From Acidimicrobiia bacterium (lineage in GTDB: Bacteria > Acidobacteriota > Vicinamibacteria > Vicinamibacterales > UBA2999), in NCBI GenBank assembly GCA_016871275.1, contig VFZG01000003.1, positions 62,001 to 126,000 of the forward strand: a stretch of 64,000 nt of DNA, read 5' to 3'. Within the stretch, counting starts at the first letter, position 1. The number at the start of each line of letters is the position of its first letter. Position numbers and translations under genes: made by a program. Under the pieces are notes generated by a model, which saw nothing but the letters and a program-made list of their open reading frames with translations, was not told where the DNA came from and did no database searches. Shown piece by piece: positions 41,269-44,881 of this stretch.

Positions 41269-42176
41269 CAAGCGCCGCGGTATTGCTGCTCCTGTCGCTT
41301 ACGACCTCTCTTGTCTCGTTTCCGCCGCAGGGCATTAGTGGCGCGGCGGCGGTGGCGCGCGCCTACGATCTGATCCTCGACGCCGACTTCGATGGCTTGA
41401 CGAAGGCCCTGCCGGCCACCTGTCCGCCGGCGCCGATGGTCGCCTGCCGCGGGCTCGAGGCCCTGAGCCTGTGGTGGCAGATCCTGATCGACCTCGACAA
41501 CCGCCAGCTCGACCGCACGTTCCTGAGCACGGTGAATGCCGCAATCAGCGAGGCCGAACGATTCGCGGCCGCCGAACCCAATCGCGCCGAAGCCTGGTTT
41601 TACGTCGGCGCCGCCTACGGCGCGCGGGCGCAGTTCCGCTCCTATCGCTACGAGCGTCTGGCCGCGGCGCGCGACGGCAAGCGGATCAAAAAGGCCCTCG
41701 AGAAGGCGCTCGCGCTCGATCCCTCCATGCACGACGCCGAGTTCGGCATCGGCATGTACCGCTACTACGCCGGCGTGGCGCCGGCGCTCTTCCGGTTCCT
41801 GCGCATCCTGCTGCTGCTGCCGGGCGGCGACCGAGAAGACGGGCTGCGCCAGCTCGAACGCGCCGGCACGCAGGGTCAGCTGGTGCGCGGTGAAGCGCAG
41901 TTCCAGACCCACGTGCTGTATCTCTGGTACGAGAAGAAATGGCCGCAGGCCCTCGCCATCATCAAGAGCCTGCAGGCACGCCATCCTCGCAATCCGCTGT
42001 TCCGGCAGATCGAAGCGGAGATCCTCGACCGCTACTTCCACGATCCTGCCGCGAGCCTCACCGCCTCCGAGCAGTTGCTCGCGCTCGCCGAATCGCGCGC
42101 GGTGTTCCGCCCCGACATCGCCGAACGCGTCGCCCGGCGCAACATCGCGAAGCAATCGAAAGCGCTCAAGCGGTAG
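41262..42176 (+). CDS. Exported TPR-like protein
   Basis: 304 residues from a GTG within the heptad array; a signal peptide spans about residues 1-25. The body is helical with TPR character: AEAWFYVGAAYGARAQFRSYR, ALALDPSMHDAEFGIGMYRY, ILDRYFHDPAASLTASEQLL. No catalytic motif. The start overlaps the repeat, so array length could alter initiation. The function is unknown. Confidence 0.7.
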   Translation: MRTSAAVLLLLSLTTSLVSFPPQGISGAAAVARAYDLILDADFDGLTKALPATCPPAPMVACRGLEALSLWWQILIDLDNRQLDRTFLSTVNAAISEAERFAAAEPNRAEAWFYVGAAYGARAQFRSYRYERLAAARDGKRIKKALEKALALDPSMHDAEFGIGMYRYYAGVAPALFRFLRILLLLPGGDREDGLRQLERAGTQGQLVRGEAQFQTHVLYLWYEKKWPQALAIIKSLQARHPRNPLFRQIEAEILDRYFHDPAASLTASEQLLALAESRAVFRPDIAERVARRNIAKQSKALKR

Positions 42177-42286
42177 GTCCTACAGAATCGTGCGCGCCGA
42201 TCCGAGATTGATGATGAAGGTGTGATGGTGCGATCGATCGGCGGCTCGAGACGGGGCGTCTGGTGGCTACAACAAACGCTTTGTGC

Positions 42287-42314
42287 TTGACAACCGATTT
42301 TTCTCATCCATAAT
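42287..42314 (+). promoter_or_regulatory. Sigma-70-type promoter of the microgene locus
   Basis: TTGACA at 42287-42292 (perfect) and CATAAT at 42309-42314 (5 of 6), 16-bp spacer. Predicted start near 42321, giving a leader of about 117 nt that contains GAAGAG/CTCTTC and CTGCC/GGCAG hairpins. It is the clearest -35/-10 pair I found. Confidence 0.8.
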
Positions 42315-42437
42315 CTACATCTGGTATGAGGGAGGACGGCTCAGGCCACTGGTTGTGAAGAGGTAAAAACTCTTCGAACACCCAAGGTCAATCAGCGGCT
42401 GCCATCAGGCAGAGTCACCCCCCATCAGGAGAGAACA

Positions 42438-42482
42438 ATGGCGAAGAAGGCTAAGAAGGCGAAGAAGGCCAAGAAGCGCTAA
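42438..42482 (+). CDS. Lys/Ala-rich micropeptide 1 (14 residues)
   Basis: Codes MAKKAKKAKKAKKR. AGGAG at 42427-42431 lies 6 nt before ATG, the best ribosome site in the region. A perfect -35 promoter lies upstream and a terminator directly downstream. Charge is about +9 with a regular AKK period, like the tails of histone H1-like and HU-tail proteins, so DNA or RNA binding is a guess. The second copy at 42670 is near identical at protein level but differs at synonymous positions (GCT/GCG/GCC, AAG/AAA), which argues for translation. Confidence 0.7.
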   Translation: MAKKAKKAKKAKKR

Positions 42483-42492
42483 GCCGCTTACA

Positions 42493-42524
42493 GGGGCGGT
42501 TCTTACAAGACTGCCCCACCCTTT
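42493..42524 (+). terminator. Terminator after micropeptide 1
   Basis: GGGGCGGT (42493-42500) pairs with ACTGCCCC (42510-42517) with one G.U pair, followed by CTTTT at 42521-42525. Weaker than the second terminator, so readthrough is possible. Confidence 0.6.
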
Positions 42525-42532
42525 TCCATTTT

Positions 42533-42551
42533 GCGCACGCATCGCGTGCGC
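42533..42551. repeat. Perfect hairpin GCGCACGC/GCGTGCGC between the microgenes
   Basis: Eight-bp arms with a 3-nt loop ATC, 9 bp after the T-run of the first terminator. Confidence 0.6.
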
Positions 42552-42669
42552 GCAGAGGCGCGAAGACGAGAGGCCGGCACCGGCGACGCTGAGTGCCAGG
42601 CGGCAGAGGCCGAGCGGTGTGGCGGCCAGTGCTTCACGCATAACCCAACCTGAAGGGGGGGATTCGACG

Positions 42670-42717
42670 ATGGCGAAGAAGGCGAAGAAGGCTGCGAAAA
42701 AGGCGAAGAAGCGCTAA
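42670..42717 (+). CDS. Lys/Ala-rich micropeptide 2 (15 residues)
   Basis: Codes MAKKAKKAAKKAKKR. A G-rich ribosome site (AAGGGGGG, 42653-42660) lies 9 nt before ATG. Compared with micropeptide 1 it has one extra residue yet keeps the same start and KKR end. It has its own strong terminator. Only a weak CATAAC at 42639-42644 could be a -10, so it may be read through from the first gene or have its own weak promoter. The role is unknown. Confidence 0.7.
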   Translation: MAKKAKKAAKKAKKR

Positions 42718-42739
42718 CGCTTCATCAGCCGTTGGTTTG

Positions 42740-42770
42740 AAAAGGGAGCGCTGGTCGCTCCCTTTTCTTT
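42740..42770 (+). terminator. Rho-independent terminator after micropeptide 2
   Basis: Perfect 11-bp stem AAAAGGGAGCG/CGCTCCCTTTT with a 5-nt loop, followed by CTTTT. It also separates the locus from the convergent HEAT/cyclophilin gene. Confidence 0.92.
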
Positions 42771-42799
42771 TGCCTGGGTGGGAACTTAGGAAACGCCGT

Positions 42800-44881
42800 C
42801 TACTGGCCGATCCAGTTGACGCCGTCCCACACCCGGATGCGCTCGATGGTGTCCCACTGCTGCAGGCGATCGACCACGTCCATTCCCGAAACCACCTGCC
42901 CGAACACCGTGTATCGGCCGTCGAGATGCGGCTGCGGTGAGTGCGTGATGAAGAACTGGCTGCCGCCGGTGTCGGCCCACTCGAGCGCCATGCCCACCGT
43001 GCCTCGGAGGTAGGGCCGCTGGTTGATCTCGTCGCGAATCGTGTATCCCGGACCGCCACCGCCGTCGCCGCGCGGATCGCCGTCCTGCACCACGAAGTCG
43101 GGCACCACCCGATGCAGCGGCACGCCCCGGAAGTAGTTCTTGCGCACCAACGCCATGAAGTTCGCGACCGTGCGCGGCGCATCCAGCACGGCCAGCTCGA
43201 ACTGAATCGTGCCCTTGCTGGTGTCGATGTAGGCCTGCGGCGAGTATGGCGGCGACACCATCGTATCCACGGCGGCCAGCTCCGGCACCGGCGGCGGCGG
43301 CGCCGGGCGCATGGCCGACACGTCCGCCGCCGGGTCCATTCGCCGCCGGTGTTCCGCAGCGCGGAGGCGGACCGCCCAGTCTCGATCGGCCAGCGCCGTC
43401 GTCAGCACCGGCCGGGCCGCCGCCGGGTCCATCGCCACAAGCGCGTCGAGCGCGGCCGTGCGGGCGCTGTACAAGCCATCGCGCTGTGACGTCTTGAATG
43501 CTTCGGTCAGCGACGCGGTGGCGTTGGCCGCCTTGACCGTCGCCAGGCCGCGAGCGGCCGCCGCACGCACCACGACGTCCTCGGCCTGCAGCCTGGCCCG
43601 CAACTCCTCCGCCGCCTTCGGTGCGCCGACCTTGGCCAGTGCATCGAGCACCGCCGGGATCACCCGCTGGTCCTCATCCTTCAGCATGGCCGTCAGCGGC
43701 GCCTCCGCACGCTCGCGATCGAGGTCGCCCAGCGTCCGGGCCAGCGAGGCGCGCACCGACCAATGCGCGTCGGGGTCCAGGCTTGAGATGGCGGACACGA
43801 ACGTGTCGACATCGGTCTTCGCGAGCGCGTTGAGCGCCGCCCCGCGCACCGATGGCCACGAGGCCGATACGAGATCGATCAACAGCTCCACCGAGTGCGG
43901 ATCCCTGAGCTGCGCCAGGGCGGTGACGGCCTCGAGCTGCAGGTTCTGCTCGACCTTCGGCGATGCGATGAGCCGCCGCATCACGGCGCCGCTGCGCGCG
44001 TCTCCAAGGCCGGCCAGCGCGCGCACGGCCTGAATGCGGACCGCCAGCGGCTGCGCGGCATCCTCCACGGCGGCCAGCAGCGGCGCCACCGCGCGTTGAT
44101 CCTTGGACGCCCCCAGCCCCCGGGCGGCAAACGCCCGCGTCAACTGCCCGTCGCCGGCCAGCAGGTCGAGCAGCACTCCTGCCGCGCGCGGATCGTTCAC
44201 TCGCTGAATCGCATAGGCGATCGGCCACCAGCGGCTGGTCGGGCGGCCTTCACGATCGAGGAATGCGGAGGCGAGCCCGTCGTAGGACCCGAGCCGCACC
44301 AGTGCAAACGCACCAAGGCGCACCGCTTCGACGGCCGGCGCCTTTGGATATCCCATGTCGTCGGGATGGATCCCCTTCAGCACCCCGCTGCTGATGTGCG
44401 CGTAGATCATGTTGGTGATCGGCTGCGCAGCCGCCTGGTGGGCGATCGAGCCGAGCGCTTCGGCCGCGCGGCCCTGGATCATCGGATCGGCGTCGCTCAG
44501 GGCCGTGATCAGCACCGGCGCGGCGGACGCGTCGCCGATCAATCCGAGGGCGAACACCGCCATCTGCCGCACTTCGGCATCGGTTTCCGACTGCAGCGCG
44601 GTGGTCAGGCCGGCCATGCCCTCGGGCAGACGCACGCGGCCGATGGCCAGGGCGGCGCGGCGGCGCACGCGCGCTTCCGCGTCGCTCAGCATCGCTACCA
44701 GGTCCCCGCCGCCGCCCCGCAGCTGCCGTTGGTCTTCGAGCTGCAGGATCCAGCGCATCTTCTGATCGAAGGCCGCGACCGGTGTCGGCGGCGCCACCAC
44801 CGGAGCGGCGGTTGGGGCGCAGCCGCTCAGCAGCAGCCAGGGCCACAGCAGGCGCAGCAGGCTCAGGCGTGTTCGGTTCAT
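42800..44881 (-). CDS. HEAT-repeat/cyclophilin fusion lipoprotein
   Basis: 693 residues from ATG at 44881, ATGA-coupled to the upstream enolase gene. A lipobox (LLLSGC, Cys about 21) marks a lipoprotein. Residues about 60-510 are HEAT/PBS-lyase-like helical repeats (DAEARVRRRAALAIGRVR, DPMIQGRAAEALGSIA). Residues about 535-693 are a cyclophilin-type peptidyl-prolyl isomerase with LHRVVPDFVVQDGDPRGDG and GSQFFITH, keeping the catalytic Arg. A membrane-anchored chaperone with a built-in scaffold is the likely role. Confidence 0.88.
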   Translation of the reverse strand: MNRTRLSLLRLLWPWLLLSGCAPTAAPVVAPPTPVAAFDQKMRWILQLEDQRQLRGGGGDLVAMLSDAEARVRRRAALAIGRVRLPEGMAGLTTALQSETDAEVRQMAVFALGLIGDASAAPVLITALSDADPMIQGRAAEALGSIAHQAAAQPITNMIYAHISSGVLKGIHPDDMGYPKAPAVEAVRLGAFALVRLGSYDGLASAFLDREGRPTSRWWPIAYAIQRVNDPRAAGVLLDLLAGDGQLTRAFAARGLGASKDQRAVAPLLAAVEDAAQPLAVRIQAVRALAGLGDARSGAVMRRLIASPKVEQNLQLEAVTALAQLRDPHSVELLIDLVSASWPSVRGAALNALAKTDVDTFVSAISSLDPDAHWSVRASLARTLGDLDRERAEAPLTAMLKDEDQRVIPAVLDALAKVGAPKAAEELRARLQAEDVVVRAAAARGLATVKAANATASLTEAFKTSQRDGLYSARTAALDALVAMDPAAARPVLTTALADRDWAVRLRAAEHRRRMDPAADVSAMRPAPPPPVPELAAVDTMVSPPYSPQAYIDTSKGTIQFELAVLDAPRTVANFMALVRKNYFRGVPLHRVVPDFVVQDGDPRGDGGGGPGYTIRDEINQRPYLRGTVGMALEWADTGGSQFFITHSPQPHLDGRYTVFGQVVSGMDVVDRLQQWDTIERIRVWDGVNWIGQ

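Follow-up and report, generated by a model that had tools for sequence, protein, structure and literature searches.

Among described systems, those closest to the two micro-genes analysed here are lysine-rich proteins of low complexity. Hc2 of Chlamydia (PF07382 / NF038052) shares with the micropeptides the lysine-rich repeats whose number sets the length of the product, but it comprises 165-237 aa according to PMC2848022, as against 14-65 aa for the micropeptides. When six members of 23-65 aa were scanned with the H1-like profiles (a minimum of 20 residues excluded the peptides of 14-15 aa), none passed; the 65-aa member reached 19.1 of 40 bits with PF07382, 19.4 of 135 with NF038052, and 17.0 of 80 with NF038053. 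Judged from the sequences, membership of the H1-like family fails on profile score and length, and the composition is that of H1-like tails. Lys/Ala-rich low-complexity repeats without a folded domain, as found in H1-like proteins, characterise the 139 composition-filtered ORFs collected here, and by their composition the peptides are presumably disordered.

AlgP of Pseudomonas aeruginosa has the same H1-tail-like composition and offers a natural model for the binding of polyanions, i.e., DNA and polyphosphate. PMC9239181 describes this H1-like protein as associating with polyphosphate granules in Pseudomonas and as carrying a KPAA-rich C-terminal domain of 154 residues within a longer protein. 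Whereas this tail is attached to a protein, the micropeptide is a stand-alone tail. A similar tail is encoded in the same genome as the micro-genes (locus L291):

C80:2386-2664, - strand, SWIB/MDM2-domain protein (PF02201) with the N-tail MAKKAKKAAKPRK, nearly equal to the micropeptides

Six AKKAKK-coding sites exist in the whole genome, five within the two micro-ORFs and one in the N-tail of this protein, which is present in 19 of the 35 genomes of the order searched. The MAKKAKKAAK start of the SWIB tails is nearly identical to the micropeptides in two genomes (G000 and G007), but the tails are joined to a SWIB domain, unlike the free micropeptides, and no co-variation between tail and micropeptide across genomes was seen with 14 tails. 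Type I toxin-antitoxin systems differ, as they pair an antisense RNA with a toxin that is a short hydrophobic membrane peptide, and the micropeptides of the window, their start Met aside, consist of K, A, and R. Small ribosomal proteins such as bTHX, bS22, and bL37 are ribosome-bound and constant in length and sequence; the range of 14-65 aa found here makes membership of this kind less likely. No description of these micro-genes appears among the titles and abstract openings listed by literature searches. One small-protein catalogue reaches frames of 30 nt, with a recovery that falls drastically for sequences of 20 residues according to PMC11364881, and may include these frames.

Two micro-ORFs and their expression signals

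The window, i.e., the whole stretch of 64,000 nucleotides that was analysed, contains two tiny frames that a first-pass annotation had proposed as twin micro-genes, and both are present with the peptides that it had given. The features of the unit and, last, the convergent gene downstream of it are listed below; counts refer to 82 loci from 82 genomes, own genome included, that were selected by this promoter.

42280..42286, + strand, motif TTTGTGC adjoining the -35 box on its 5' side (63 of 82 loci; TTTATGC in 7, TTTCTGC in 4)
42287..42292, + strand, -35 box TTGACA (80 of 82 loci)
42311..42316, + strand, probable -10 box TAATCT with an 18-nt spacer (75 of 82 loci have TAATCT at this distance)
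42323..42437, + strand, 5' leader A, its putative start about 7 nt after the -10 box
42427..42433, + strand, Shine-Dalgarno site of ORF1, AGGAGAG, type A (AGGAG; the first ORF is preceded by type A in 56 of 56 multi-ORF loci)
42438..42482, + strand, ORF1, MAKKAKKAKKAKKR, 14 aa
42493..42525, + strand, hairpin and short T-run 3' of ORF1, terminator or attenuator (fold -16.0 kcal/mol)
42530..42669, + strand, leader B between the copies, with a GUGCC-AGGC-GGCAG hairpin that part of the order shares
42652..42661, + strand, Shine-Dalgarno site of ORF2, GAAGGGGGGG, type B (as for 48 of 57 later ORFs)
42670..42717, + strand, ORF2, MAKKAKKAAKKAKKR, 15 aa
42739..42775, + strand, intrinsic terminator ending the unit (terminator scan; fold -23.2 kcal/mol, z -3.8)
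42800-44875, - strand, fusion of a HEAT-repeat protein with a cyclophilin-type prolyl isomerase (HEAT-cyclophilin)

Beyond the start Met, both peptides contain K, A, and R only, with nine positive side chains on 14-15 residues (+9). They are the sole frames on either strand of the window that pass a filter for K/A/R-rich micro-frames (an ATG followed by 10-60 codons, a K/A/R content of 90% or more, and a K content of 35% or more), and no frame passed it when the window was dinucleotide-shuffled 100 times and the region 42177-42799 2000 times. Both frames are real genes.

A complete expression unit, as had been claimed, exists. The promoter scan of 41500-43600 found one site where 0.2 were expected. 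Of the TTGACA-16-CATAAT promoter originally described, the TTGACA at 42287 stands, and the CATAAT (42309-42314) was probably read 2 nt off TAATCT. In other orders of the class, 14 of the 15 loci with micro-ORFs have a homologous promoter consisting of TTGACA, 17-18 nt, TAnnCT, 8 nt, and TATG or TGCATG, with the counterpart TTGACA, 18 nt, TAATCT, ACATCTGG, and TATG in the window. Because TAnnCT at 17-18 nt is conserved there, the -10 box of the window is probably TAATCT. The promoter, usually with TTTGTGC upstream, suggests strong and perhaps regulated transcription.

Both predicted ribosome sites are present as well. Type B, found before ORF2, matches the sites before micro-ORFs in two families of other orders, where most f16 loci and the f17 loci have GAAAGGGGGGAT or a sequence near it; another type occurs in family f19. 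Of the two terminators claimed, the second is strong (42739-42767). The first, a hairpin at 42493-42517 followed by ACCCTTTT, is missing from the terminator-scan output in this genome, where its T-run is short, yet a laxer scan of the two-ORF loci detects a hairpin with T-run after ORF1 in 46 of 55 and after ORF2 in 53 of 55, compared with 28 of 417 control stretches. No promoter-like site before ORF2 appears in the promoter-scan output. As a terminator follows ORF1 and no promoter-like site is listed before ORF2, partial read-through is suggested.

Distribution of the unit and selection on the peptides

A DNA query covering 42286-42774 matched 86 of 99 genomes (own genome and 98 relatives), some in the lysine-coding part alone. 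Ninety loci were taken into the promoter scan; seven without the promoter were left out (L011, cut at the contig start, as well as L090 and L092-L096), and the promoter match of L091, with 9 mismatches, was dropped as spurious. All 82 remaining loci encode at least one lysine-rich MAK... micro-ORF within 900 nt, which is not a measure of how many genomes have the unit since these loci were selected by the promoter. The micro-ORF filter let through frames that began with MAK and had 30% K or more; without the MAK condition, the same loci still show lysine-rich frames. Absence of the locus from relatives, or frames broken by indels beside conserved flanking hairpins, had been named as what would speak against the micro-genes, and at the level of the unit the opposite was found, i.e., a homologous locus with an intact frame. 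Two micro-ORFs are present in 55 loci, one in 26 (contig ends truncate some of these), and three in one, the triplet of L081 with 22, 18, and 21 aa. In L024, L038, and L051 one longer frame (39, 65, and 48 aa) replaces two short ones and, with first frames only considered, the first frame has 37-60 aa in L159, L181, L204, and L210.

Several lineages have a degenerate ORF1 or have lost it, with promoter, leader, and one later ORF still in place, and each copy is therefore dispensable alone. Single-ORF loci, some of them cut, are split between 13 with a type-A and 13 with a type-B Shine-Dalgarno site, a distribution which indicates that in promoter-bearing loci either copy can be absent but never both.

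The start region, searched with 31 nt and up to 3 mismatches, occurs in single copy in 94 of 193 genomes of the class, i.e., in 94 of 162 from the own order and 0 of 31 from other orders. Of the 68 own-order genomes without a match, 30 were searched further and 20 of 30 returned loci were examined: 11 have a diverged promoter and a micro-ORF, and 9 have no micro-ORF. Two of these 9 (L136 and L145) are cut on that side; the other seven belong to family f8, in which no micro-ORF was found in the flanking sequence present. In the GTDB species set, 74 records contained an exact match to a 21-nt query, 71 titled Acidobacteria or a subgroup and three titled otherwise. After 45 records identical to used loci or too near the record end had been dropped, all 29 further loci contained a micro-ORF. 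The element is also present in MAGs titled 'Cyanobacteria', 'Acidimicrobiia', and 'Bifidobacterium breve' (L162, L180, and L185), titles that are probably mislabels. Luteitalea is placed by NCBI in the Vicinamibacterales, Vicinamibacteria, Acidobacteriota, and to judge from its relatives the window is taken to come from this order. With regard to a viral origin, the start region has no exact match in viral_contigs.

Downstream of the unit, the convergent gene for the HEAT-cyclophilin is present in 78 of 82 loci according to clustering and direct tblastn, and in three of the remaining four loci the sequence stops 21-153 nt past the last ORF. The upstream neighbour in the window codes for a protein of 304 aa with a TPR match below the Pfam cut-off, and direct tblastn finds a relative in 51 of 82 loci. 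Frame clustering had placed this gene family in 76 of 82 loci, but the cluster had merged other frames and the count of 51 was used; the lower count leaves the downstream gene, the coding signal, and the class-wide promoter untouched.

HEAT-cyclophilin relatives occur in 29 of 31 genomes of the other orders of the class, and 27 of 30 loci anchored by this gene were examined. Lysine-rich micro-ORFs lie within the fetched 1.5 kb in 15 of the 27, several loci having two (MPAKKKAAKKATKKKK, MAAKKAAKKAAKKKK, and similar). Among the 12 without one, nine belong to family f18, in which no micro-ORF was found in the 1.5 kb beside the HEAT-cyclophilin gene, L120 is cut before that flank, and in G103 the unit lies about 3 kb from the HEAT-cyclophilin gene. 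As none was found in the nine f18 and the seven f8 loci, the unit is dispensable in some lineages and not universally essential. On these sequence comparisons the unit spans orders of the class, with losses. It is a vertically inherited, genuine micro-gene pair.

In the wider phylum, a query derived from f16 matched 154 of 396 genomes, own class included; outside the class, among the matches listed, essentially the lysine-coding part and not the leader is covered. Longer lysine-rich proteins from elsewhere in the Acidobacteriota share K/A/T-rich stretches with the micropeptides but differ in size, with frames of at least 50 aa in 20 of the 27 outside-class loci examined. Another part of the phylum has a short unit, conserved in 11 of 14 genomes of family f48 searched, and 10 of the 11 loci contain a K/A frame of 20-25 aa, for instance MPAKKKAAKKSTKKAKKGKK, preceded by a Shine-Dalgarno site; in the three of these ten that were inspected in full, a terminator is present. 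By eye, the conserved f48 leader (L261-L270) has a possible pairing between CUGUCA and UGACAG around the Shine-Dalgarno site. Similar frames of 19-23 aa occur in f67 and f74 (L276, L277, and L279) and, GTG-started, in f59. The units of these four families may be homologous or convergent.

The 139 ORFs of the 82 loci contain 51.5% K, 31.1% A, 5.7% G, and 5.1% R, and 122 of them end in KKR; the MAK start and the K/A-richness are partly due to the ORF filter, which required both. Peptide length varies from 14 to 65 aa by changes in frame, and the interior is of low complexity. Such variable length combined with similar composition and ends suits a function based on charge rather than on a lock-and-key fit.

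That the codons vary synonymously, as the first-pass annotation had argued in favour of selection on the peptide, is borne out by pN/pS values (Nei-Gojobori proportions, same-length pairs with unequal-length ones left out, pairs not independent). Between ORF1 and ORF2 of the same locus, pS is 0.505 and pN 0.070 (27 pairs, ratio 0.138), and within-family orthologues give 0.286 for 96 pairs of first ORFs and 0.291 for 85 pairs of last ORFs. When the orthologue pairs are shifted to frames +1 and +2, the ratio is 0.79 and 1.08, respectively. The peptide is under purifying selection. In 15 of the 55 two-ORF loci, the peptides of ORF1 and ORF2 are identical although their coding sequences differ at 3-8 nucleotides, which makes recent gene conversion less likely. 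After within-family shuffling of partners, which controls for kinship at the family level and not below (family f1 contributes 33 of the 55 loci), identical pairs numbered 8.0 on average and 13 at most, and none of 5000 shuffles reached 15.

Pairing in the leader RNA

An alignment of 57 of the 68 type-A leaders (A1) was used to draw a structure in which a 5' hairpin (P1) exposes the loop GCUCAGC, which pairs with GCUGAGC located 5' of the ribosome site (P2). In A1, 79.8% of the P1 cells and 84.6% of the P2 cells are paired, and a third helix is weak (57.5%); for the whole structure, 76.7% of the cells are paired compared with at most 45.8% in slid versions. Covariation amounts to 0.182 against 0.123 after shuffling, a value that none of 500 shuffles and no slid version attained, with the reservation that the structure was drawn by eye from the same sequences and that related sequences can beat all shuffles without structure. 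RNAalifold gave no consensus structure for the 57 leaders. In 14 new leaders, 81 of 84 cells of P1 are paired, where slid versions reach no more than 54 of 84, and so are 88 of 121 cells of P2, where they reach no more than 42 of 108. P1 is mismatched in the window and most of its genus and largely intact in L002 and L003; P2 is kept in the window (42338-42342 with 42412-42416) and lengthened in the predicted fold. These comparisons give moderate support to a leader with RNA pairing of its own.

Two further candidates were rejected. Occlusion of the type-B Shine-Dalgarno site by a C-run of leader B shows no excess, the pairing probability at 61 sites being 0.70 against 0.73 after shuffling. 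A 5' mini-frame that opens with ATG or GTG at about +4 of the putative transcript has its stop after 9 or 10 codons in 61 of 82 loci, but its pN/pS of 1.39, compared with 0.76 and 0.75 in the other two frames, indicates no coding selection. In f16 (L098, L099, L100, L104, and L231-L233), a leader hairpin with a conserved loop near GUCACCCGACAUGUUGA is, by eye, unlike the leader of the window's order.

Possible roles of the micropeptides

The genes are established, and what they do we infer from the features described above. With moderate confidence, we favour a stand-alone pair of polycation micro-genes, with a conserved promoter and control by a leader RNA, whose products would bind nucleic acid or another polyanion. 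The unit would be strongly transcribed from the conserved promoter; some transcripts would stop after ORF1 and the remainder read on to ORF2, which would provide two levels of product. The leader would tune the supply of peptide, and the peptide would bind a polyanion, such as chromosomal DNA, RNA, or polyphosphate, by its charge, for which the Lys/Ala-rich tails of bacterial H1-like proteins might serve as a model. Binding to the nucleoid or to RNA is our best guess, in view of composition, length variation, and resemblance to H1-like tails.

It seems unlikely that the unit mainly yields a regulatory or dual-function RNA, with the structured transcript of about 480 nt as chief product and the peptides as accessories. 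The transcript as a whole folds better than its shuffles (z -6.3), the DNA matches reaching farthest are those of the start region (query 1-73, about 76-97% identity over 29-76 nt across the order), and lineages without ORF1 retain promoter and start region. However, no examined unit with the promoter is without an intact frame, the pN/pS values of 0.14-0.29 compared with 0.79 and 1.08 in the other frames of orthologues reveal coding selection, and between orders of the class the leader changes while the type of peptide is constant. A search of 42150-42850 against Rfam 15 gave 8 matches at E<=10, none of which reached its family's gathering score (the best with 22.8 of 50 bits).

Tiny, strongly basic products whose near-identical copies are retained within genomes would also fit a small peptide that associates with the ribosome or serves as an RNA chaperone and has a specific site to bind, as with bTHX, bS22, or bL37. 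We consider this role improbable: a fixed ribosomal site would constrain length and side chains more tightly, whereas the micropeptides range from 14 to 65 aa, have a low-complexity interior, and are missing in some lineages. A service as bulk counter-ion for another polyanion, i.e., polyphosphate or a cell-surface polymer, or as an exported cationic antimicrobial appears quite improbable. The products are pure polycations, and the association of AlgP with polyphosphate granules reported in PMC9239181 provides a precedent for the former; export is opposed by the lack, by eye, of a hydrophobic stretch in the sequence and by the two adjoining genes of the window, the 304-aa gene and the HEAT-cyclophilin gene, neither of which serves processing or export. 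A terminator behind short Lys-rich frames also recalls a leader peptide or attenuator for a downstream gene, but this is very improbable: the next downstream gene, that of the HEAT-cyclophilin, is convergent in 78 of 82 loci, where nothing is left to be regulated in cis, and the unit ends with the second terminator. A chance low-complexity frame, such as repetitive codons and simple expansion could yield, is refuted by its absence from all 100 window and 2000 region shuffles and by conservation in relatives.

Extending the favoured reading of a polyanion-binding micro-gene pair, one might tentatively envisage a phylum-wide 'micro-histone-tail' class in the Acidobacteriota, in which twin polycations of about 14-30 residues and lineage-specific sensing leader RNAs would form a self-regulated charge buffer. 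The copies would co-evolve, the leaders would sense how much peptide or free nucleic acid is available, and the buffer would serve the nucleoid or RNA; the f48 units, of the MPAKKKAAKKSTKKAKKGKK type with conserved leader and Shine-Dalgarno site, would be either members of this class or convergent inventions.

Genes as short as these are often omitted by annotation, and their products are too short and repetitive for database searches. The present case demonstrates that a 14-residue lysine-alanine peptide can be the product of a real, selected gene in a bacterial class, with promoter, place, codons, and peptide conserved, and it provides a test case for the dosing of a potentially toxic polycation. 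If binding to DNA or RNA is true, the micropeptides would be among the smallest proteins that pack nucleic acids and would constitute a natural minimal model of the tails of histone H1-like proteins.
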